A DNA stretch of 42,521 nucleotides from a virus: positions 1 to 42,521 of the IMG/VR virus record IMGVR_UViG_3300021170_000272; one strand, written 5' to 3'. The position numbers were made by a program, and so were the translations under genes. Shown piece after piece: positions 16,761 through 39,128 of the stretch (position 1 is the stretch's first letter; every line of letters begins with the position of its first letter). Below the pieces are notes generated by a model that did no database searches, was not told where the DNA came from, and worked only from the letters and a program-made list of their open reading frames with translations.

Positions 16761-16795
16761 CGAGATTCGACCGATAAATTTTGGAGACGCAGAAC

Positions 16796-18403
16796 ATGAA
16801 CGGCAAATTTCCGTCCTTCGCAAAGCGCATCAACCATGGCGCAGACTCACGTGAATCCATCCTAAAAGGCGTCAACATCCTCGCGGACCTCGTGGAATCC
16901 ACGCTCGGGCCGGGAGGCAGGTTCATCTGCATCCACCGCCCGATGTCCAAGCCATTCCTCACCAAGGACGGCGTGACAGTGGCACGGGAAGTGTTCCTAC
17001 AGGACGAGTTCGAGGACGCTGGAGCCCAAATGGTGAAAGACGTTGCGTCCAAAACCTGCAACGAGGCAGGCGACGGCACTACTACTGCCACCTTGCTCGC
17101 CCGCACTATCTATTCCGAAGGCTTGAAAGCCACAAGGGCCGGAGCCAACCCCGTGATCCTGAAAAAGGGCATGGATTTTGCTGTCTCGCACGCATTGGTC
17201 GCCCTGAAAAACCTATCCCACCAAGTCACCGACGAGGAAGTAGTCAAGATCGCCACGATCAGCGCAAACGGCGACGGGTTCATCGGCGGATTGGTCAGCA
17301 AGGCCGTGCTGAAGGTCGGCACTGACGGCGTCGTAGTAGTAGGCAAGTCCCATTCCTCGGAGACCAAGCTCGAAATGGTCGATGGCTGCCGATTCTGGCA
17401 AGGCTGGATCAACCCGTACTTCATCACCAACGCGGAGAGGCAGGAAGCCCTGTTGGACAACCCCTACATCTTGATTTTTGACAAGAAGCTGGTCGCTTTG
17501 CAGCCCATGCTTCCGTTTTTCGAGAAAATCGCCAAGCAAAAGCGGTCGGTCCTCATCATTGCGGAAAATATCGAGGGCGAGGCTCTCTCCATCCTTGTCA
17601 ACAACCGACAGGCGTTGCAAACCGTGCCCGTGAAGGCACCGGGATACGCCGTTGACCGCAGTACGCAGCTTGAAGACATTGCCATCCTAACGGGGGCGAC
17701 GGTAATCACCGATGCGTTGGGCTTGAGGCTCGAAGAGATCGGTTTTGAGCACCTCGGCAACGCCACGAGCGTCACTGTGGGCAAAGAGTTCACCACGATC
17801 ATCGAGGGCGCTGGCTCGCCCGCAAAAATCCAAGCCCGCATCTCCGAGCTTCGTTCCGCCGTGGACATGGAGCAGGACCAAGGGACCAAGGAGAAGCTTC
17901 AGGACAGGCTCAGCAAGATGAGCGGCGGTCTCGCCATCATCAGGGTGGGCGGTGCCTCGGAGCTTGAGGTAGAGGAACGCTGCTACCGGGTGGAAGACGC
18001 CATGCACGCTACCCGCGCCGCAATCGAGGAAGGAATCGTGCCGGGCGGGGGAGTTGCCCTGCTTAGGGTGGCACTCACGCTGGAACCCAAGGAATTGTGG
18101 GAAGGGAAGCACAAGGATTTCATGGCCGGATTGCGCATCGTGCAGGATGCCATGCTAATGCCCATCCAAAAAATTGCTTCTAATGCGGGATTTGATCCGC
18201 TGGAAGTGTTGTCCAAGGTTAGGTCTTTTACCGCCCACCCCAATTCAGGCTTCAATGCCCTAACCGGGGAATACGGCGATCTGAAGGATCAGGGCATCAT
18301 CGATCCTGCCAAGGTGGTCCGCAGTGCCTTGAGCAATGCAGAATCCATCGCATCCCTCATGCTGGTGACCGAAGGCATGATCGTGCATCCCATGGGCGAA
18401 TAA
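16796..18403 (+). CDS. groEL: GroEL-type chaperonin (phage-encoded Hsp60)
   Basis: A 535-residue group I chaperonin that folds proteins in an ATP-driven double ring. Family motifs are clear: TLGPGG, KDGVTVAREV, EAGDGTTTATLLAR (ATP and magnesium site, with the catalytic-type Asp of GDGTTT) and the C-terminal equatorial signature VEDAMHATRAAIEEGIVPGGGVALL. The C-terminal Gly-Gly-Met tail usual in bacterial GroEL is missing; the protein ends MIVHPMGE. GGAGAC lies 10 nt upstream of ATG 16796, so the longer TTG start at 16781 is rejected. It is encoded directly before the major capsid gene, with a GroES homologue just after, implying a dedicated capsid-folding machine. Confidence 0.95.
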   Translation: MNGKFPSFAKRINHGADSRESILKGVNILADLVESTLGPGGRFICIHRPMSKPFLTKDGVTVAREVFLQDEFEDAGAQMVKDVASKTCNEAGDGTTTATLLARTIYSEGLKATRAGANPVILKKGMDFAVSHALVALKNLSHQVTDEEVVKIATISANGDGFIGGLVSKAVLKVGTDGVVVVGKSHSSETKLEMVDGCRFWQGWINPYFITNAERQEALLDNPYILIFDKKLVALQPMLPFFEKIAKQKRSVLIIAENIEGEALSILVNNRQALQTVPVKAPGYAVDRSTQLEDIAILTGATVITDALGLRLEEIGFEHLGNATSVTVGKEFTTIIEGAGSPAKIQARISELRSAVDMEQDQGTKEKLQDRLSKMSGGLAIIRVGGASELEVEERCYRVEDAMHATRAAIEEGIVPGGGVALLRVALTLEPKELWEGKHKDFMAGLRIVQDAMLMPIQKIASNAGFDPLEVLSKVRSFTAHPNSGFNALTGEYGDLKDQGIIDPAKVVRSALSNAESIASLMLVTEGMIVHPMGE

Positions 18404-18593
18404 AAATTCCAACTACGTAGTGCCCTTAGTAGAAGCTGCCATAGGGTCGTCCGCAAATGACGATATAAACTAAGAACCCTCCAAAAAGCTTCCAACCTCA
18501 GCCCAAGGCATATCGGGCAAGCGACTCAGACCGACTCAGACGATCAGCGTCCGCATTTTGGTGGCTGAAATTCAATCTTTTGAGGTTACACCT
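18404..18593 (+). promoter_or_regulatory. Long leader of the major capsid gene with tandem GACTCAGAC repeats
   Basis: A 190 bp non-coding leader. It opens with words shared with the scaffold leader (CCAACTAC...TTAGTAGA), including the palindrome ACTACGTAGT. Near its end stand two exact tandem CGACTCAGAC copies (18522-18531 and 18532-18541) followed by GATCAG. The repeats share their core with the GGAGACTCAGAT element of other late genes and are spaced one helical turn apart, suggesting a binding site or a late promoter element. Confidence 0.5.
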
Positions 18594-19928
18594 ATGGCTG
18601 CATTGCTTGAAGCATCAGTCGAGGCTATCGAAGTCGAAGCGTTTGCGAAAGAAATTCCAGACCTTATCGGCCATTTCGAGACTGCCTACAATCTTTTCAA
18701 GGACAACGCAACAGTTGTTCCTATCTCTTACCAAACCCTTGCAGGCGGCACGTCTCGCGGCTCGTTCCGTGTTCCGTTCCGTGTGCAGGGAGGCGCACCG
18801 CCCGTTCAGGCTTCCGGCGACCGTTCCTCAATGGGACCGGGCTCCGGGTCGAACTGGCAGGGCTTCGTGCTCTCTCCGGTCTTCCTCTTCAACGTATGCG
18901 AAATCAGCTACCTTGCGAAGAAGGCTACCGAGGGCAAGAACCGTGCTCTGTTCTCCGTGCAGGCTGCGGAACTCAAGAACACCCTCAAGACCTTCCTTAA
19001 CGGCCTCGAAGGACAGTTCAACTCGGATGGCTCTGGCCAGATCGACCAGATTCCTTCGACGGCAACCGTCTCCTCTTCGTCCGGCTCCGGCGCACAGACC
19101 AGCTTTATCTCTGGTTTGAACACCGTCGCAGGGTTCGTTGACCAACAGGTCATCAGCGTGTTCCCGTCCATCGGCGGCACGACCCGTGGTACCGCGACCA
19201 TCTCCTACGTGGACGTGGTCACGCAGACCCTCTTCTTCTCCACCGTGCTTCCGAGCACGGGCGGAGCCACCGCAATCAACGACTATCTAATGGTCAATGG
19301 CTCCAGCGGTGCGGCGGGTTCTTCCATCATGGGCATCCGCGCATGGCATGTGAACGGCAACACCGGAACCTTGGCAGGCATCAACCGCGCCAACTTCCCC
19401 AGCCGTATCAGCACGCCGACCATCAACCTTAACGGCGGCGCAATAACCCCCGGCATCGGGCTTCGTGCTCAAGTGCTGTTGGGTCGTGCGCTCGGGCCGG
19501 ATGCGGACTCCATCAAGGAATCCGTGTGGTACGGCCCCGCTGAGCAGGCTTACGCTGTCGGACAGTTGTTCTTCAACGTGAACCAAGCTCTACAGCGTCC
19601 GGGCGACTCTAACGACAAGCCTCTGGACATGAGCCGCAAGATGTTCCAAGAGCAGTTCGCTGGCCGCAAATACCACACTTCGTGGACTGCGCAGCCCAAC
19701 CGTGTTGACCTCCTTCACCTGCCGTCTTGGTATCTCGGCGAGCTTGTCTCCCCCGAGCTATACAACTTCGGCGATGCTGGCACGGTCGTCCCGGTTCCTG
19801 ACACCAGCACCTCGACGGGCACGTATTACACCAGCTTCATGTTCGCCTACAATGCGAGCTTGAACTTGGCATGCAGCGCCCCCCGTTTGGGCCTCTACAT
19901 CGGATCGGCTGCTGTTCCGAGCGTCTAA
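18594..19928 (+). CDS. Major capsid protein
   Basis: A 444-residue protein in the canonical capsid position, probably of the HK97 fold and forming the shell. It contains an N-arm-like helix (MAALLEASVEAIEVEAFAKEIPDL), a Gly/Ser-rich loop region (ASGDRSSMGPGSGSNWQGF), many beta segments and a conserved-looking C-terminal part (SWYLGELVSPELYNFGDAG...APRLGLYIGS). ATG 18594 is preferred because GAGG lies 9 nt upstream; an in-frame GTG at 18558 lacks a binding site and would add 12 residues. A strong terminator follows, as expected for the most highly expressed virion gene. The call rests on context and size; no unique motif is visible. Confidence 0.8.
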   Translation: MAALLEASVEAIEVEAFAKEIPDLIGHFETAYNLFKDNATVVPISYQTLAGGTSRGSFRVPFRVQGGAPPVQASGDRSSMGPGSGSNWQGFVLSPVFLFNVCEISYLAKKATEGKNRALFSVQAAELKNTLKTFLNGLEGQFNSDGSGQIDQIPSTATVSSSSGSGAQTSFISGLNTVAGFVDQQVISVFPSIGGTTRGTATISYVDVVTQTLFFSTVLPSTGGATAINDYLMVNGSSGAAGSSIMGIRAWHVNGNTGTLAGINRANFPSRISTPTINLNGGAITPGIGLRAQVLLGRALGPDADSIKESVWYGPAEQAYAVGQLFFNVNQALQRPGDSNDKPLDMSRKMFQEQFAGRKYHTSWTAQPNRVDLLHLPSWYLGELVSPELYNFGDAGTVVPVPDTSTSTGTYYTSFMFAYNASLNLACSAPRLGLYIGSAAVPSV

Positions 19929-26230: not shown

Positions 26231-29200
26231 ATGTCTCACACACTTGTAGGTCGCAACGCCGTCACCACCGATACGCTCGGAGGATTGTTTCTTCTAGCCG
26301 CCCCCCAAGACCTTCCTGAAGGGGCGTCCCCGATGAACTGGGACGTCGATTTCAACAAAGTGGGCCAAGTCGTCACGCGCCCCGGCAAACAATCCGTGTA
26401 TTCCTATGGAGGCTCGTCCCTCGGCCCCGTCACAGGCGGGCTTGCCTTCGACCTTGCAACTGGCGGCAATGCTTGGACGAATCCCAGTTCCATCCTCGCC
26501 AATGGCTCTACCTATGCCTCGATCAGCATCGCAAGCAGCGGCACTGCAACTCTTGCCCCAGCCTTGGGCACTACCAGCGGCAACGGCACAGCATGGACGA
26601 ACCCCGGCAACATCAACCAAACAGGTCCGTCGAATTTCGCCACAGTCTCATTGACCATTCCCCTGAACCCCGTTCCTCCGGGACCGGGGCCGGGCGGCAA
26701 CGTATCTTCGGTCTCGCCTACTTATGGCTACCGGGGCACCAACGTCACCGTCACGGGGACGGGCTTCGGAACCACGCAAGGCACGAGCTATGTGAGCTTC
26801 GCGGGAGTCGCGGCTCCCGTCGTTAGTTGGAGCAGCACGTCGATTGCCTGCACGGTGCCTTTCGGAGCCACGACGGGCATCAATCTTGTCCAAGTCATTG
26901 TAGGCGGGCAGTCGGGCAGCGGAGCCAACTACAACGTCATCGATACCCCGACCGGGGGCGGAGGAGGCGGCGGAGGCGGAGCTTGCTTCAGCGGCAATGT
27001 GAGGATCGAGACAAGGCAGGGATACCGGGCATTCAATCTTCTTCCCCCCACCGTCGAAATCCGGAACCAGACTGGCGTCCACACTGCGGACCTGATCACG
27101 CACGAACATTGGTCCGGCACGATGCTGGACATGGGCGGGGACAATCTCGTCACGCTCGACCACTGCGTAAAAATTGGGAACGAGTGGGTGCCAGCAGGTC
27201 TGGCTTTTCCAGATGCTCCCCGCGTCCAAGTCCATGACATCACGGTCTACAACCTTCACGTCATCACGCAGGAAGAAGCCGACCGCCATTACATCCTTGA
27301 AAACGGAGTAGTGGCCCACAACATCCTAAAAGCTTCCCTCGACCCAGTGGACTCGCAGCAGCTTATCGGATCGGGATTCACGTTCAGCATTCCCAATGGA
27401 GCCACAGTAGTGGGGCTGAGTGTCAGCTTCAATGCCTTGGCGAACGGCACGGGCTTCCCTTCCATCCAAGCCCAATTCATCCAGAACGGAGTCCCGGTCG
27501 GGACCACGCATTCGCAGAACGTCACCACGTCGAACGGATTTTACACATTGGGCTCCGCTACGGACTTGTGGGGAGCCAACTGGACCAGCAGCCTCGTGAA
27601 CGGCAGCGCGCTGACGGTCGCATTGACGGCTGTGTGCACGGGCAACTATCCGGCGAGCAACAATTTCAGCCTCAACAGCGCGACGGTCACCGTGTATTAC
27701 ACGGCGGCGAGCTTCGGCGATCCGCTGCAAGTGACGGAGTTCGGGTTCTCGTTGCCCAGCACTTCCACGGTGCATGGAATCCAGATCGCCCTCAGCGGCT
27801 ACACCGCGAGCACAGCGGCTTCCCTCAACGTCCAGCTTTTGCGCAACGGCCTGCCCGTGGGGTCGATCAAGAACGTCGTCATGCCTGCGGCACAGGGCAC
27901 CATCACGCTCGGAAGCTCCGCCGACTTGTGGGGATTCAACTGGCAATATAGCGACCTGAACAACACAGCGTGGGGCGTGCAGATCAAGCCCGTTGGCTCG
28001 GCGAGCCAGTTCCTCAATTTCATCACCGCCACTATCTTCCAGCCGATCTCCGTGGCTACCAGCCTTTACGCAAAATCCTGCCGCTTCAACAACGGCAACA
28101 TCAACACCCTGATGTGCGATGCCAACGGCACCATCTGGAACGAGAACGTCACCTCGAACCCCGGCGTGCTGAACTCCTTGTTCCAAGCCTTGGTGCCCGG
28201 CACCTACATGAAGAGCAGCACGGCGTTCAACCGCGAATACATGTGCTTCAGCAACGAACTCGGAGGCACGGATGTGCCGAGGCAGTGGGACGGGCTCCTG
28301 AACTTGGACCGCATCACGCAGGTGCCTCCCGGCGCACCGCCGAACTTCTCCGCTTCGCTTGGCGCGGGCAGCAACGCATCTATCACGAATTTCAGCATCA
28401 CCAGCAATATCGTCAGCTTCGTCGCCAACAACAACTTCACCGCAGGCGAGATCGTCAGCATTAGCGGGCTCACCACGGGCACCTACCTGAACGGGCAGAC
28501 CTTCAGCGTGCTGGGCACCGGGCTCACCGCCACAGGATTCCAAGTTGCATTCGTGCATGCGAACGTCGGAGCCACGGCGGACGCGGGCACGGCCACGCCG
28601 CAATACGGCTACCCGTTGTCCAGCATCACGCAGAGCGGTGCCAACCCATTGGGGCAGTGGCACCAGCTATTGTGGTCGGATGCTCCGGGCTCAAAGAGCG
28701 CAGGGCAGGTCATCACTATCTACTATGCGCGCAGCGACACGAACCCGCAGCCCGACACGACCTTGGTCAATGCCTTCAACAGCGGGCAGCCAGTCTACAT
28801 CTACGTGACGGGAGCGGCCTTCGGCAACGGAGTGCAGCTTGTAACAAGCGTTGGAAGCGCGGTGCCTCCGGGTGCGCAGTATCCCCGCTGGTACCTCACT
28901 TTCGGCGCACCCACGGCGAACTACCAATACACAGGCTCCAATCCCGGCATTCCCGGCACCTACCAGATCACCGCAGCCACGGTGACGGTTGCCACGCCTA
29001 TTCCCAACGCAGCGCCCGGCGACCAAGTGGTCATCAGCGGCTCCACGCCCACGGGCTGGAACGCCACATGGTCGGTGACGCAGAACACGAAGTCCGGCGT
29101 CTACACCATCACTCAGACCAGTATCAGCAGCAACACCGCCACCTACAATTGGACGCTGGTCAGCGGAGCCGCCCCCGTGGCAGGGCAGCTTGTCACGATC

Positions 29201-31852
29201 ACAGGCACGCTCAATGGCGGAGGAGTATTCAACGTCACGGACGCCGTGATCGCAACTGCGACTGGAACCACCAGCGGCACCTTCACCATCACGAACATGA
29301 CGGTAGGCACAGTGCCGAGCCAAAGCGAGAGCGGCACCGCCAACAGCAGCGGCACGGTGTTTGTCATCGATCCGGGCTTCAAGTTCCTCGGCACCACCAC
29401 GAACCCGATCTTTGGCAACTCGACAAGCGGCACCATCACAGTAGCGGGCAGCACGTCCCAGTTCCCCATCACGCCGGGCACCAAGCAAGGCGTATGCCTG
29501 TTCGTCACGAGGAACGGAGCCATCACCGGGGCGTCCGTATTTTTCACCTTCACTGTCGGCCTGACTGCCAACTACATTTACGCAAACCAAATCCCCATCG
29601 GGCCGCCCAACACCATCAAGCGCATCATCGCCTTCACGGAGAGCGGGCAGAACGGGATCGCGGGGCAGTTCTTCTACTACATCGGCAATCCCGTGCCGTC
29701 GATTTTGAACAACCAGCAGGTGACCTTCAGCAGCACGGTCATCACCGACAACACCACTACGACCGCAAAGTTCACCTTCAGCGATGCGGTGCTCGTCAAT
29801 GCCACGGAGATCGACATTCCGTCGCAGGACTACTTCAACAACATCGAGCTTGGAAGCGCGGCTTGGAACATCCCCTATGCCAGCCGCATGTTCTACGGCT
29901 TGGTGCAGAACAAGGTCTACAACTTCAACAATATGAGCTTCGACGGCGGCTACCTGCCGAACCCCGTCACCAACACCCTTACCCCGTTGGGCTGGACTCT
30001 CGATGCCTCGTCGAACCCCGGCGCAGGCAATCCCTCGACTATCACGAGCTTCCAGATCGCCAGCAATGTCGTCACCGTGCAGGCTTCCAATGCCTTCGTG
30101 GCGGGGCAGCAAATCACCATCACGGGGTTGACCACGGGCACTTACTTGAACGACCTGACCTTCACGGTGCTGGCTGCCGGGCTTTCGGCGACCCAGTTCG
30201 CGGTAGCGTTTGCGCACGCCAACGTGGTCAGCACCGCCGACAGCGGCAGCGCGATCCCATTGCAGCAGCAAGGCACATTGCTGGTGTCGCCTGTGTTCGG
30301 CAACAGCTACTACATCAAGAACACCACGGCTGCCACGCAATCCCTGTTCGGCATGATCACGCAGCCCGCCTATCAGGACGCATACGGAGTGCCGATCATC
30401 CGGCCGAACGTGCTTTACAGCGTCCGCGTGACCTGCCGCTGCCCCAGCGGAAAGACGCAGGGCAACCTGCTCGTTGACCTGACGGACTTCGACCCGAAGA
30501 CCGGATACGGCATCACCTACGGCAAGTTCACGGCGAACTTCTCCTCCATGACCAGCAACATGGCGATCTTCACGGGCGCGTTGCTCACGACTCCGTTCAG
30601 CGGGCAGGTGAGCAGCCAGTTGGTGCTGAGGGTCGCGGCGCAGAACATCGTGCACTACGGAGACCTTGAGATCGACCGCATCGAGGTCTATCCGACGCTC
30701 CAGCCCCTCGGCTTTCCCACTACTCCCGTGGGGATCATCGGCAGCTACGCGGGCTTCCCCGAGCAGATCGACATCAACAGCGGGGTGATCGACCTGACGG
30801 ACAACAACATCCAGCAATGCTACGGCGGGGCGGTGATCAACAACATCCTCTACCTGCTGAAAGAAAATTCGATGCACAGCACAAAGGACACGCCGAACGC
30901 GGAGCCCGGAAATTGGGACGTATCCGAAGTGAGCGACGAGGCGGGAGCCTGCGGCATACACGCCTACGACCGTGGGGAACAGTATCTCGTCACCGCTTGC
31001 CGCAACGGGCTCTATGCCTTCAACGGCGGGCAGCCCCGCAAGATCAGCCCCGAAATCCAGCCCATGTGGGAAGCCATTAACTGGGCCTACGGCTTCACCA
31101 TCTGGGTGAAGAACGACGTGATCAACAAGCGCATCCTCGTGGGCGTGCCGATGGCCACTGGTCCGGGCACCGCTTCCTTCCAATGGCTGCCGAAGGCTAT
31201 TCCCAATGCCAACCCGACTTCGCCGAACGTGATCCTTGTGTGCAACTACACGGGGTTGGATTCGTTCGATGCTCTCGTGAACGAGCCGGGCGTGCACGTG
31301 ACGATGTTCGGAGCATTGGCGGATTTGGAAATGCGCCGCAAGTGGACGGTGTGGACCATCTCCTCGCCTTATGCGGATTTCATCTACAGGCAGGACGGGC
31401 TGAGCCGCCCGCTGTTCCTTTGCAACGGAAACGGGAACGGCAAGGTATACCAGCTTTCCTTTTCGCAGCTATCGGACGACGGCGTCGTGCCGATCAACGG
31501 GCTCTACGTGACCTATGGGCACGTCAACGCCGCCAAGGCGAAAGAAAATCCGCTGTTGGGCTTCACGCAGAAGCGTTGGGTGAAGTTGCAGCTTACTGCC
31601 GGGGGATCGGGAAGCCTCAAGATCACCCTGCTGCGGGAATCGCTTGGCGACCCCAAGCCTTGGGTCGTGCTGAAGCAGCCTTCGCTCACTGCACTGACCA
31701 CGGACTATGTGCGCAACTTGAATCTCCGGTCGAACCGCGTCTTTGTGCAATTTGAAACCCTTGGGCTCGGAGCCGCCATGCAGGTTTCCAAACTCATTCT
31801 TGTGGGCAACAGCGACAGCCACAGCCCCATGCCGATAAAGCCGGGGGTCTAA
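26231..31852 (+). CDS. Tail nozzle protein (gp10/tail-tubular-B-like) with inserted Hint and Ig-like domains
   Basis: A 1873-residue protein. The opening (LGGLFLLAAPQDLPEGASPMNWDVDFNKVGQVVTRPGKQSVY) and the C-terminal region (NNIQQCYGGAVINNILYLLKENSMHSTKD...VSDEAGACGIHAYDRGEQYLVTACRNGLYAFNGGQPRKIS) match the nozzle proteins that extend the podovirus tail, with their beta-propeller-like repeats. It is over twice the usual length of about 800. Added parts are an IPT/TIG-type Ig domain (about residues 156-237), a run of nine glycines, a Hint domain (252-364), two tandem copies of a beta-sandwich (about 375-500 and 500-610), and further Ig-like modules. The IPT-Hint block interrupts the first beta-sandwich. 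It follows the spike and precedes the internal proteins. Confidence 0.75.
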   Translation: MSHTLVGRNAVTTDTLGGLFLLAAPQDLPEGASPMNWDVDFNKVGQVVTRPGKQSVYSYGGSSLGPVTGGLAFDLATGGNAWTNPSSILANGSTYASISIASSGTATLAPALGTTSGNGTAWTNPGNINQTGPSNFATVSLTIPLNPVPPGPGPGGNVSSVSPTYGYRGTNVTVTGTGFGTTQGTSYVSFAGVAAPVVSWSSTSIACTVPFGATTGINLVQVIVGGQSGSGANYNVIDTPTGGGGGGGGGACFSGNVRIETRQGYRAFNLLPPTVEIRNQTGVHTADLITHEHWSGTMLDMGGDNLVTLDHCVKIGNEWVPAGLAFPDAPRVQVHDITVYNLHVITQEEADRHYILENGVVAHNILKASLDPVDSQQLIGSGFTFSIPNGATVVGLSVSFNALANGTGFPSIQAQFIQNGVPVGTTHSQNVTTSNGFYTLGSATDLWGANWTSSLVNGSALTVALTAVCTGNYPASNNFSLNSATVTVYYTAASFGDPLQVTEFGFSLPSTSTVHGIQIALSGYTASTAASLNVQLLRNGLPVGSIKNVVMPAAQGTITLGSSADLWGFNWQYSDLNNTAWGVQIKPVGSASQFLNFITATIFQPISVATSLYAKSCRFNNGNINTLMCDANGTIWNENVTSNPGVLNSLFQALVPGTYMKSSTAFNREYMCFSNELGGTDVPRQWDGLLNLDRITQVPPGAPPNFSASLGAGSNASITNFSITSNIVSFVANNNFTAGEIVSISGLTTGTYLNGQTFSVLGTGLTATGFQVAFVHANVGATADAGTATPQYGYPLSSITQSGANPLGQWHQLLWSDAPGSKSAGQVITIYYARSDTNPQPDTTLVNAFNSGQPVYIYVTGAAFGNGVQLVTSVGSAVPPGAQYPRWYLTFGAPTANYQYTGSNPGIPGTYQITAATVTVATPIPNAAPGDQVVISGSTPTGWNATWSVTQNTKSGVYTITQTSISSNTATYNWTLVSGAAPVAGQLVTITGTLNGGGVFNVTDAVIATATGTTSGTFTITNMTVGTVPSQSESGTANSSGTVFVIDPGFKFLGTTTNPIFGNSTSGTITVAGSTSQFPITPGTKQGVCLFVTRNGAITGASVFFTFTVGLTANYIYANQIPIGPPNTIKRIIAFTESGQNGIAGQFFYYIGNPVPSILNNQQVTFSSTVITDNTTTTAKFTFSDAVLVNATEIDIPSQDYFNNIELGSAAWNIPYASRMFYGLVQNKVYNFNNMSFDGGYLPNPVTNTLTPLGWTLDASSNPGAGNPSTITSFQIASNVVTVQASNAFVAGQQITITGLTTGTYLNDLTFTVLAAGLSATQFAVAFAHANVVSTADSGSAIPLQQQGTLLVSPVFGNSYYIKNTTAATQSLFGMITQPAYQDAYGVPIIRPNVLYSVRVTCRCPSGKTQGNLLVDLTDFDPKTGYGITYGKFTANFSSMTSNMAIFTGALLTTPFSGQVSSQLVLRVAAQNIVHYGDLEIDRIEVYPTLQPLGFPTTPVGIIGSYAGFPEQIDINSGVIDLTDNNIQQCYGGAVINNILYLLKENSMHSTKDTPNAEPGNWDVSEVSDEAGACGIHAYDRGEQYLVTACRNGLYAFNGGQPRKISPEIQPMWEAINWAYGFTIWVKNDVINKRILVGVPMATGPGTASFQWLPKAIPNANPTSPNVILVCNYTGLDSFDALVNEPGVHVTMFGALADLEMRRKWTVWTISSPYADFIYRQDGLSRPLFLCNGNGNGKVYQLSFSQLSDDGVVPINGLYVTYGHVNAAKAKENPLLGFTQKRWVKLQLTAGGSGSLKITLLRESLGDPKPWVVLKQPSLTALTTDYVRNLNLRSNRVFVQFETLGLGAAMQVSKLILVGNSDSHSPMPIKPGV
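26984..27322 (+). other. Hint (intein-like) domain inside the nozzle protein
   Basis: Codons 252-364 of the nozzle gene. It starts with Cys252 in CFSGNVRIETRQGYRAF (splicing block A form), has LVTLDHCVKIGNEWVPAG (block B, with the conserved T-x-x-H), VYNLHV (block F) and ends VVAHN (His363-Asn364). The next residue is Ile, not Cys/Ser/Thr. At 113 residues it is a minimal domain without homing endonuclease. This fits the bacterial intein-like group, which cleaves or splices itself; the absence of a +1 nucleophile favours cleavage or an alternative reaction. Nine Gly residues precede it. Confidence 0.85.
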
Positions 31853-31854
31853 CC

Positions 31855-32469
31855 ATGGCGCAAAACAACCAGCTTGACGGAGGCGCATGGCTGAACGAGG
31901 TAGGACAGAAACAGCCCCGCCTCGCCGCCTTGCTCCAGAAAATGATCGACCACGTGAACAACGGCTTCAAGGCATTGGCGGCCACCGGGGGCGGCGAGAT
32001 CGGTCCTCCGGCTCCTCCCGCCAGCGTCACGGTAAGTGCTGCCGCAACTGGCGAAACGGTCCACGTGCAGATCAGCCATCCCGATCCCTTTCTCCAAAAG
32101 GGGGCACAGTATTTCACCCACGTGGGGGTGAACGACCCGAACTTCGTCCAGCCCCTCACCATCGACCACGGGGCGAGCAGGACTCCGCATCCCTTCACGC
32201 TGCCCACCATGGACAGCGGCGGAGCCACGGTCAAATACTATTTCCGCAGCTTCGCCCAATACCACGGCTCCGCAAGGTCTCCCTACACCTATTGGGGCAC
32301 GGAACAATCCCCCACTGCCGTAACCCTCAACGGCTCCACCAAGCACACATTGCTGCCATCCACAGGCAGCGGGACGGGCGACAACTCAGGCAGGCAGCCA
32401 GCAGGCTTGGGAGACACGCTCGTGAGGGCTCCGGGGAACAAGCCGAAGCGGACCTTGGGGAGCGTTTAA
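31855..32469 (+). CDS. Tail-associated structural protein
   Basis: A 204-residue protein starting 2 bp after the nozzle stop. The N-terminal helix (WLNEVGQKQPRLAALLQKMIDHVNNGFKAL) resembles short oligomerisation or anchoring helices. The rest is a fibronectin-like beta domain (ASVTVSAAATGETVHVQISHPDP...ATVKYYFRSFAQYHGSARSPYTYWG) and a Gly/Ser-rich tail. No family recognised with certainty; a minor tail component is likely from context. Confidence 0.55.
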   Translation: MAQNNQLDGGAWLNEVGQKQPRLAALLQKMIDHVNNGFKALAATGGGEIGPPAPPASVTVSAAATGETVHVQISHPDPFLQKGAQYFTHVGVNDPNFVQPLTIDHGASRTPHPFTLPTMDSGGATVKYYFRSFAQYHGSARSPYTYWGTEQSPTAVTLNGSTKHTLLPSTGSGTGDNSGRQPAGLGDTLVRAPGNKPKRTLGSV

Positions 32470-37850: not shown

Positions 37851-37900
37851 TTGCACCGCTGGGAATAGTTGCTATCATCCCCGATAGCAACTATTCCCAG
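37851..37900 (+). promoter_or_regulatory. Promoter overlapped by a perfect 18 bp inverted repeat (operator)
   Basis: CTGGGAATAGTTGCTATC (37859-37876) and its exact reverse complement (37883-37900) are separated by ATCCCC. A sigma-70-like promoter, TTGCAC (37851-37856) and TATCAT (37873-37878) with 16 bp between, is covered at its -10 by the repeat, so a bound dimer would block transcription of the methyltransferase and endonuclease. The methyltransferase's own ribbon-helix-helix domain is the obvious candidate for the binder. No T tract follows, so it is not a terminator. Confidence 0.8.
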
Positions 37901-37916
37901 TGGAGCGTGTTCCGGA

Positions 37917-39128
37917 ATGCCGAAACAACTGCTCGTTCGCAACGTCCCCGAGAACGTGCACCAGTGGATCGACAGCCAGCGCCAACAGCACCAGATGTCC
38001 CAGCAGGAGTTCGTGCTTTCCGTCCTGCAAAAGGCATCGACGCCAGACCAGATACTCCCGCTTCCCTTCGAACAGATTCGCCGAGCCGATCCGGCTCCGG
38101 CCGAACTGCCTTTCACTTTCATCGATCTCTTTGCGGGGATCGGGGGCTTCCGGATCGCGCTCGAAGGAATCGGCGGCAACTGCGCGTTCTCGTCCGAGTG
38201 GGACAAATACAGCCAGAAGACCTACAAGGCGTGGTTCGGCGACATTCCGCAGGGCGACATCCGCAAGATCAAGCCAGCGGAAATTCCGGACCACGACATA
38301 CTGGCGGCAGGCTTTCCCTGCCAGCCGTTCTCCATCGCCGGGGTCTCGAAGAAGAAGAGCCTCGGCCGTGCGCATGGGTTCAAATGCGCCACGCAGGGCA
38401 CGCTGTTCTTCAACATAGCCTCCATCCTCGAAGCGAAGCGGCCGCCCGTGGCATTGCTTGAGAACGTGAAAAACTTAAAGGGCCATGACAAGGGCAGGAC
38501 GTGGGAGACGATCAAGGAAACTCTCGAAGACCTCGGCTATGTGGTCTTCCACCGGATCATCGACGCAGCGCCGTGGGTTCCCCAACATCGTGAGCGGGTC
38601 TACATCGTGTGCTTCGACAAGCGGGTGTTCGGCGAGGCTCCGCCGTTCCGTTTTCCCGAGCGTCCCAAGACAGCGCCCAAGGTCCGGGACATACTGGAGC
38701 CCGAGCCTGACAGCCGCTACACGCTCTCCTCGCATCTGTGGAATTACTTGGTCGAATACGCGAAGAAGCACAAGGAGGCCGGCAACGGATTCGGCTACGG
38801 CTTGGCCGATCTCGACGGCGTCAGCAGGACGCTGAGCGCCCGCTACTTCAAGGACGGCTCGGAGATTCTCATCCCGCAGCCAAGGAAGAGCCCCCGCCGC
38901 CTGACCCCGAGGGAATGCGCCCGGCTCATGGGCTTCGACGATGCCCTGCCAATCGTCGTGAGCGACACGCAGGCATACAGGCAGTTCGGCAACGCCGTGG
39001 TGCCCAAAGTCGCCACTGCGGTAGCAATGGAGATCATCAAGGTATTCCGCTGGCAGCTTGTCCAGAAGCCCAACGGCTGCCTGCTCAAGTCGGCTCCAAA
39101 GCCTCAAGCGTTCGCCGCAGCGGGATAA
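37917..39128 (+). CDS. DNA cytosine-5 methyltransferase (EcoRII/Dcm-like) with N-terminal ribbon-helix-helix domain
   Basis: A 403-residue C5-methyltransferase that methylates the inner or outer cytosine of its site using S-adenosylmethionine. Catalytic motifs are complete: I FIDLFAGIGG (68-77), IV GFPCQPFS with Cys135, VI LLENVKN (181-187), VIII QHRERVYIV and X FGNAVVPKV. The target-recognition region (HKEAGNGFGYGL, SRTLSARYFKDGSEILIP) looks like that of Dcm and M.EcoRII, predicting CCWGG. Residues 1-40 (MPKQLLVRNVPENVHQWIDSQRQQ...EFVLSVLQKA) read as a ribbon-helix-helix DNA-binding domain, an uncommon fusion. ATG 37917 follows GGAG at 37902-37905. The endonuclease starts 4 bp later. Confidence 0.92.
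   Translation: MPKQLLVRNVPENVHQWIDSQRQQHQMSQQEFVLSVLQKASTPDQILPLPFEQIRRADPAPAELPFTFIDLFAGIGGFRIALEGIGGNCAFSSEWDKYSQKTYKAWFGDIPQGDIRKIKPAEIPDHDILAAGFPCQPFSIAGVSKKKSLGRAHGFKCATQGTLFFNIASILEAKRPPVALLENVKNLKGHDKGRTWETIKETLEDLGYVVFHRIIDAAPWVPQHRERVYIVCFDKRVFGEAPPFRFPERPKTAPKVRDILEPEPDSRYTLSSHLWNYLVEYAKKHKEAGNGFGYGLADLDGVSRTLSARYFKDGSEILIPQPRKSPRRLTPRECARLMGFDDALPIVVSDTQAYRQFGNAVVPKVATAVAMEIIKVFRWQLVQKPNGCLLKSAPKPQAFAAAG

Follow-up and report, generated by a model that had tools for sequence, protein, structure and literature searches.

A polyglycine-Hint module inserted in a nozzle-like phage tail protein as a candidate self-processing element

The interrupted tail protein and its setting

The window, the full 42,521 nucleotides of viral record IMGVR_UViG_3300021170_000272, encodes a nozzle-like tail protein of 1873 residues that is interrupted by a TIG/IPT domain, a glycine run and a Hint domain (Table 1). 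Across the junction, translation of 26231-31852 reads T241-G242..G250-A251-C252FSGN...T308LDH311...H363N364-I365. The initial annotation had described a Hint domain preceded by nine glycines and followed by Ile. Translation gives exactly the coordinates and motifs it reported, and Ile365 does follow His-Asn; the nine glycines are present, but Ala251 stands between them and Cys252.

Table 1. Coordinates of the interrupted tail protein gene, its parts and the terminase gene in the window
Feature	Position	Strand	Residues and motifs	Basis
Tail protein gene hosting the module, nozzle-like	26231..31852	+	1873 aa	ORF and translation
N-terminal piece of the interrupted sandwich-like domain	26468..26659	+	80-143; WTNP..FATVSLTI	Matches in homologues
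TIG/IPT domain	26702..26929	+	about 158-233	PF01833, E 3.9e-11
Nine-glycine run	26954..26980	+	242-250, then Ala251	Translation
Hint domain	26984..27322	+	252-364 (113 aa); Cys252, T308-x-x-H311, His363-Asn364	Profile, fold, motifs
+1 Ile and linker leading back into the interrupted domain	27323..27346	+	365-372; ILKASLDP	Translation
Rest of the interrupted domain and tandem copy	27347..28063	+	to about 490; copy 495-611	Copies 34% identical
Terminase large subunit	9438-11129			Gene-order basis for the nozzle label

The N-terminal piece of the sandwich-like domain ends with the last strand before the insert and matches homologues L003, L085, L086, L088, L093, L106 and L074 in sequence comparison. 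The domain resumes from about residue 373, and residues 383-489 align with 495-611 as tandem copies (E 9e-14). A profile of the conserved C-terminal part of the protein retrieves 27 loci in viral contigs. The TIG-polyglycine-Hint block is missing from most of these homologues, and the flanking pieces are contiguous in L003, L085, L086, L088 and L106. Alignment occupancy is about 0.6-0.7 in the left flank and 0.77 in the right, against 0.05-0.23 inside residues 141-360. The insert occupies a variable loop, in a region missing entirely from homologues L078 and L082, and not the conserved functional host site of class 1 inteins. The proposal that an IPT-like domain, polyglycine and Hint together break up a domain repeated in tandem downstream is borne out by sequence comparison. 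The TIG match (residues 158-232) scores 50.4 bits, above the PF01833 cut-off; a TIG domain occurs in none of 24 related records, and a search with this part of the protein finds no kin.

The nozzle label carried over from the initial annotation fares less well. Searches of PHROGs, Pfam and PDB sequences link the 1873-residue protein to no nozzle family, even with an 18-sequence profile, and queries from it find no match in an isolate-phage collection. We infer nozzle identity from gene order and the N-terminal motif: the terminase upstream and the conserved downstream block are suggestive of the arrangement around podovirus nozzles (T7 gp12, P22 gp10). Elsewhere in the window, a GroEL-like chaperonin gene (16781-18403; phrog_5725, E 1.9e-138) lies among the virion genes, close to a conserved 456-aa ORF (18558-19928) that may encode the capsid protein, and an ORF at 37869-39128 carries FIDLFAG, a cytosine DNA methyltransferase motif. 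Several homologues have group I introns (Rfam RF00028) at the 5' end of the nozzle-like gene or close to it (L084:1127-1338, L107:3961-4172, L089:3587-3799 and L003:4810-5023), one of them parting the first codons from the rest of the gene in L084 and L107; none in the window exceeds the RF00028 threshold.

A complete and very small Hint domain

Residues 252-364 form a genuine Hint domain, complete and very small. Alone, they match intein_Cterm (TIGR01443) at 19.7 bits (cut-off 15.6) and Vint weakly, at 15.8 bits, below its cut-off of 27; no model named BIL is among the family matches. Alignment with 22 diverse relatives (21-52% identity to the window Hint) shows C1, F2, T57, H60, H112 and N113 to be invariant; C, F and His-Asn fall partly within the search patterns, T and H within none. 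Inactive catalytic positions in relatives, which the initial annotation had named as evidence against self-processing, were thus not found among these 22. Among the 22 members, 16 match Vint, 11 PT-HINT and 11 Intein_splicing. A profile built from 21 relatives, the window excluded, scores the window protein at 113.5 bits, whereas the best of 1000 shuffles reaches 3.9, so the match is not due to chance; a profile from distant relatives alone still gives 34.2 bits against 8.4. A PDB sequence search with query A1 returned only chance matches driven by polyglycine (CCDC6, scFv linkers), and the same query finds no relative in bacterial and archaeal genomes.

AlphaFold2 run on the 22-relative alignment models the window Hint with a pLDDT of 95.7 and a pTM of 0.87; a single-sequence prediction was discarded as a poor model (pLDDT 46). 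Foldseek and VIA-align match the Hint model to inteins, bacterial intein-like (BIL) domains, Vint and Hedgehog Hint domains. The top solved structures by Z are the NpuDnaE intein (4kl5, 13.0) and a Clostridium thermocellum BIL domain (2lwy, 12.6), followed by Tetrahymena BIL2 (6y75, 12.2), further BIL matches down to 12.1, Vint (8r2c, 11.7) and Hedgehog (1at0, 11.1). At 113 residues, the window Hint is shorter than the shortest matching chains listed (125-131 aa). The hallmarks of the superfamily are in place: the beta-fold in the model, the block A Cys252 and the block B T308LDH311.

Distribution of the module and the two-gene form

The initial annotation had proposed looking for Hint domains in related genes. 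Exactly one is present in 4 of 25 related records, which may be incomplete, and none in the other 21. The four are the window, a genotype seen twice (L074) and L078. At the insertion site of the window, L074 carries the N-terminal part, 22 glycines and a Hint domain with no TIG domain. Its gene stops four residues past His-Asn (AHN-KQLK), and a second gene, which begins at AAGGGAGTAACCATG and has its own ribosome-binding site (AAGGGAG-N5-ATG), codes for the rest of the protein. The L074 stretch is identical over 17,122 bases in a second assembly, making assembly error an unlikely source of the stop. In L078, the homologue is without the sandwich-like region, and polyglycine-Hint ends the next gene, itself homologous to window 31855-32469. 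The module is therefore accessory, residing in the tail gene or an adjacent one.

Two scans place the same module in other phage tail proteins. The pattern GGGG-x-C-F-x-G-[DN] finds 68 loci, a majority of them real Hints as judged by their motifs. In a second scan, which uses the C-terminal motif alone and does not require glycines, a leader rich in glycine (at least 4 G among the last 12 residues) precedes all distinct intact cases except L111, and the protein ends 4-6 residues past His-Asn, again except in L111. Glycine-rich leaders precede the Cys in relatives of the window Hint as well, and the counterpart of the 365-372 linker is 4-6 residues followed by a stop. In relatives, A, F, I, K, L, M, N, S or V follows His-Asn. 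Among the host proteins are gpJ-type tip proteins (Phage-tail_3, FNIII-A_GpJ, phrog_31, phrog_1101) and others with carbohydrate-binding modules. The Hint of the gpJ group typified by L004 lies close to the N-terminus (VHN|AGLG); that of the window's subfamily is usually C-terminal, and the window is the one member found to have a long chain on either side. A more distant, tape-measure-like protein, L011, is also two-sided, with 748 residues before the Hint and 70 after. In phage tail proteins, the combination of a glycine-rich leader and a Hint domain recurs as a sporadic module, nearly always close to one end of the protein.

Variants of this arrangement occur. The tape-measure-like protein itself (954 aa; L011:1942-4803, minus strand) carries Gly14-T-Hint near its C-terminus. 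A tandem pair of Hints, the first without a glycine arm, ends a 989-aa protein on a 463-kb contig (L111:117-3083, minus strand). Structural-looking proteins in L018, L035, L044 and L059 end in a G-rich arm, C-C-F and a Hint without His-Asn; their ends (NGVLVY or NGVLTY) have the appearance of a type-B-like variant. L008, a gpJ-type allele, has lost the block B His (TPNN instead of TPNH) and is a possible natural inactive form. One candidate relative, L002, shares just a 19-residue chance match. The idea that Lys-rich tails after His-Asn merely encode the ribosome-binding site of the next gene is not valid as a general rule, the site lying after the stop in several cases.

Across 31 pairs, a median dN/dS of 0.09 indicates purifying selection on Hints of the N-terminal gpJ-type group, distinct from the window's subfamily; the window's own subfamily offers no close pairs for such an estimate. 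Sporadic occurrence, with a Hint in 4 of 25 related records and the block missing from most homologues, might reflect a decayed, inactive Hint that is tolerated in a loop and processes nothing. This reading appears highly improbable: every catalytic position is preserved, with the nearest relatives about 50% identical, the frame is open, the predicted fold is good, and the gpJ-type group is under selection.

The glycine arm bears on a second alternative, modelled on Hedgehog: a nucleophile such as an amine, supplied by an adjacent virion protein or by the host surface, would capture the thioester that terminates the arm, and the tail tip would become covalently cross-linked or anchored. Consistent with such attachment, nearly every Hint found has the arm, also in the search that does not require glycines, the hosts are mostly tail or adhesion proteins, of gpJ type or with carbohydrate-binding modules, and the usual place of the module in the window's subfamily is the end of the protein, the position of the Hint in Hedgehog. 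Yet a conserved His-Asn is a sign of Asn cyclisation, a step Hedgehog autoprocessing does without; moreover, no acceptor is known, and the arms may be mere flexible spacers. We consider attachment unlikely in the window protein. We think it distinctly unlikely, too, that phages in general use polyglycine-Hint as a tail-tip device in which a thioester, self-activating and carried on a flexible glycine arm, covalently joins the tip protein to another virion protein or the host cell during assembly or adsorption.

Predicted processing and comparison with known systems

We favour, with modest confidence, an accessory self-processing module of the type-A BIL kind, by which the nozzle-like tail protein would cleave itself into two chains with the Hint removed. 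In the proposed sequence of events, the Hint has entered a loop of the sandwich-like domain together with the TIG domain. Cys252 would attack the Ala251 carbonyl in an N-S acyl shift aided by T308-x-x-H311, and water or another nucleophile would resolve the resulting thioester. Asn364 would cyclise with the assistance of His363, freeing Ile365. We infer the reactivity of the Hint and this order of bond breaks. The products would be an N-terminal part (residues 1-251, ending in TIG-Gly9-Ala), a C-terminal part (residues 365-1873) and the released Hint, the two parts probably being held together by the domain they share.

The initial annotation had left the choice between self-cleavage and splicing open. 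Class 1 inteins require Cys, Ser or Thr at +1 for transesterification, and canonical splicing is excluded because the window has Ile365 there. Cleavage is the main activity of BIL domains that lack a +1 nucleophile (PMC7664689; PMC4031507), and those of type A, with His-Asn and no such nucleophile, can also ligate, at a low level, by way of the freed amine (PMC4031507; PMC7664689; PMC7765530). Self-cleavage of a type-A BIL-like Hint is accordingly favoured here, there being no +1 nucleophile and a split gene at the same site in L074. No start site for the C-terminal part is evident by eye within the window gene, so two chains could arise from it only by cleavage. The L074 form shows that a relative tolerates two chains at this point and does not demonstrate cutting of the window protein; its break at the exact site nonetheless suggests that the Hint cuts the window protein in two. 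Cleavage of a two-sided chain has no close parallel, the relatives having one short side.

A non-canonical route back to one chain would have the freed Ile365 amine attack the Ala251 thioester, removing the Hint alone and leaving TIG and Gly9 as a loop. Type-A BIL domains can do this at low level (PMC4031507), and the site falls within a loop of a domain that homologues have uninterrupted. In BIL domains, however, cleavage products are the main ones (PMC4031507; PMC7664689), Ile at +1 is not a nucleophile, most relatives have just 4-6 residues after His-Asn, and splicing in cis is impossible in the two-gene L074. Such aminolysis is very unlikely in the window.

A natural experiment on whether such domains cut is provided by a single protein that occurs uninterrupted, as one long chain carrying the module, and as two genes along with the module. 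If active, the module would offer a host-independent route to maturing a virion part and would rank with the smallest natural Hint domains available to protein engineering. No description of Hint domains as recurrent phage tail protein modules was found in the literature consulted; the phage Hints described there are inteins of replication and packaging enzymes.

Those inteins share the Hint fold with the window domain. Hint matches in informatively annotated phage records lie in terminase-, helicase-, RNR- or polymerase-type genes (PMC3556154). Phage inteins occupy conserved enzyme sites, often with a +1 Cys, Ser or Thr and a homing endonuclease, whereas the window module has neither and lies in a tail protein. 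Vint (PF14623) and PT-HINT (PF07591) are the best Pfam relatives of the set, although the window Hint falls below the Vint cut-off and stands in a different protein context. The Hedgehog autoprocessing domain shares the fold and, with most of the window's subfamily, the C-terminal position, but the window Hint and its relatives keep His-Asn. Hog domains have a C-terminal sterol-recognition region after the Hint; the window Hint and its relatives have none, and in the window the interrupted tail domain resumes directly behind the Hint. BIL2 of the Tetrahymena BUBL1 locus is the best Foldseek match (E 3.5e-5), yet it comes from a eukaryotic locus and is just 14-16% identical to the window Hint. 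Type-A BIL domains share with the window Hint the fold, the N-terminal Cys, TxxH, the C-terminal His-Asn and the lack of a +1 nucleophile, as well as sporadic occurrence outside conserved enzymes (PMC7765530; PMC4031507). The window Hint differs in size (113 aa against 138 in 2lwy) and in its place in phage tail proteins, behind a glycine-rich arm; by anatomy, it fits the type-A BIL kind.
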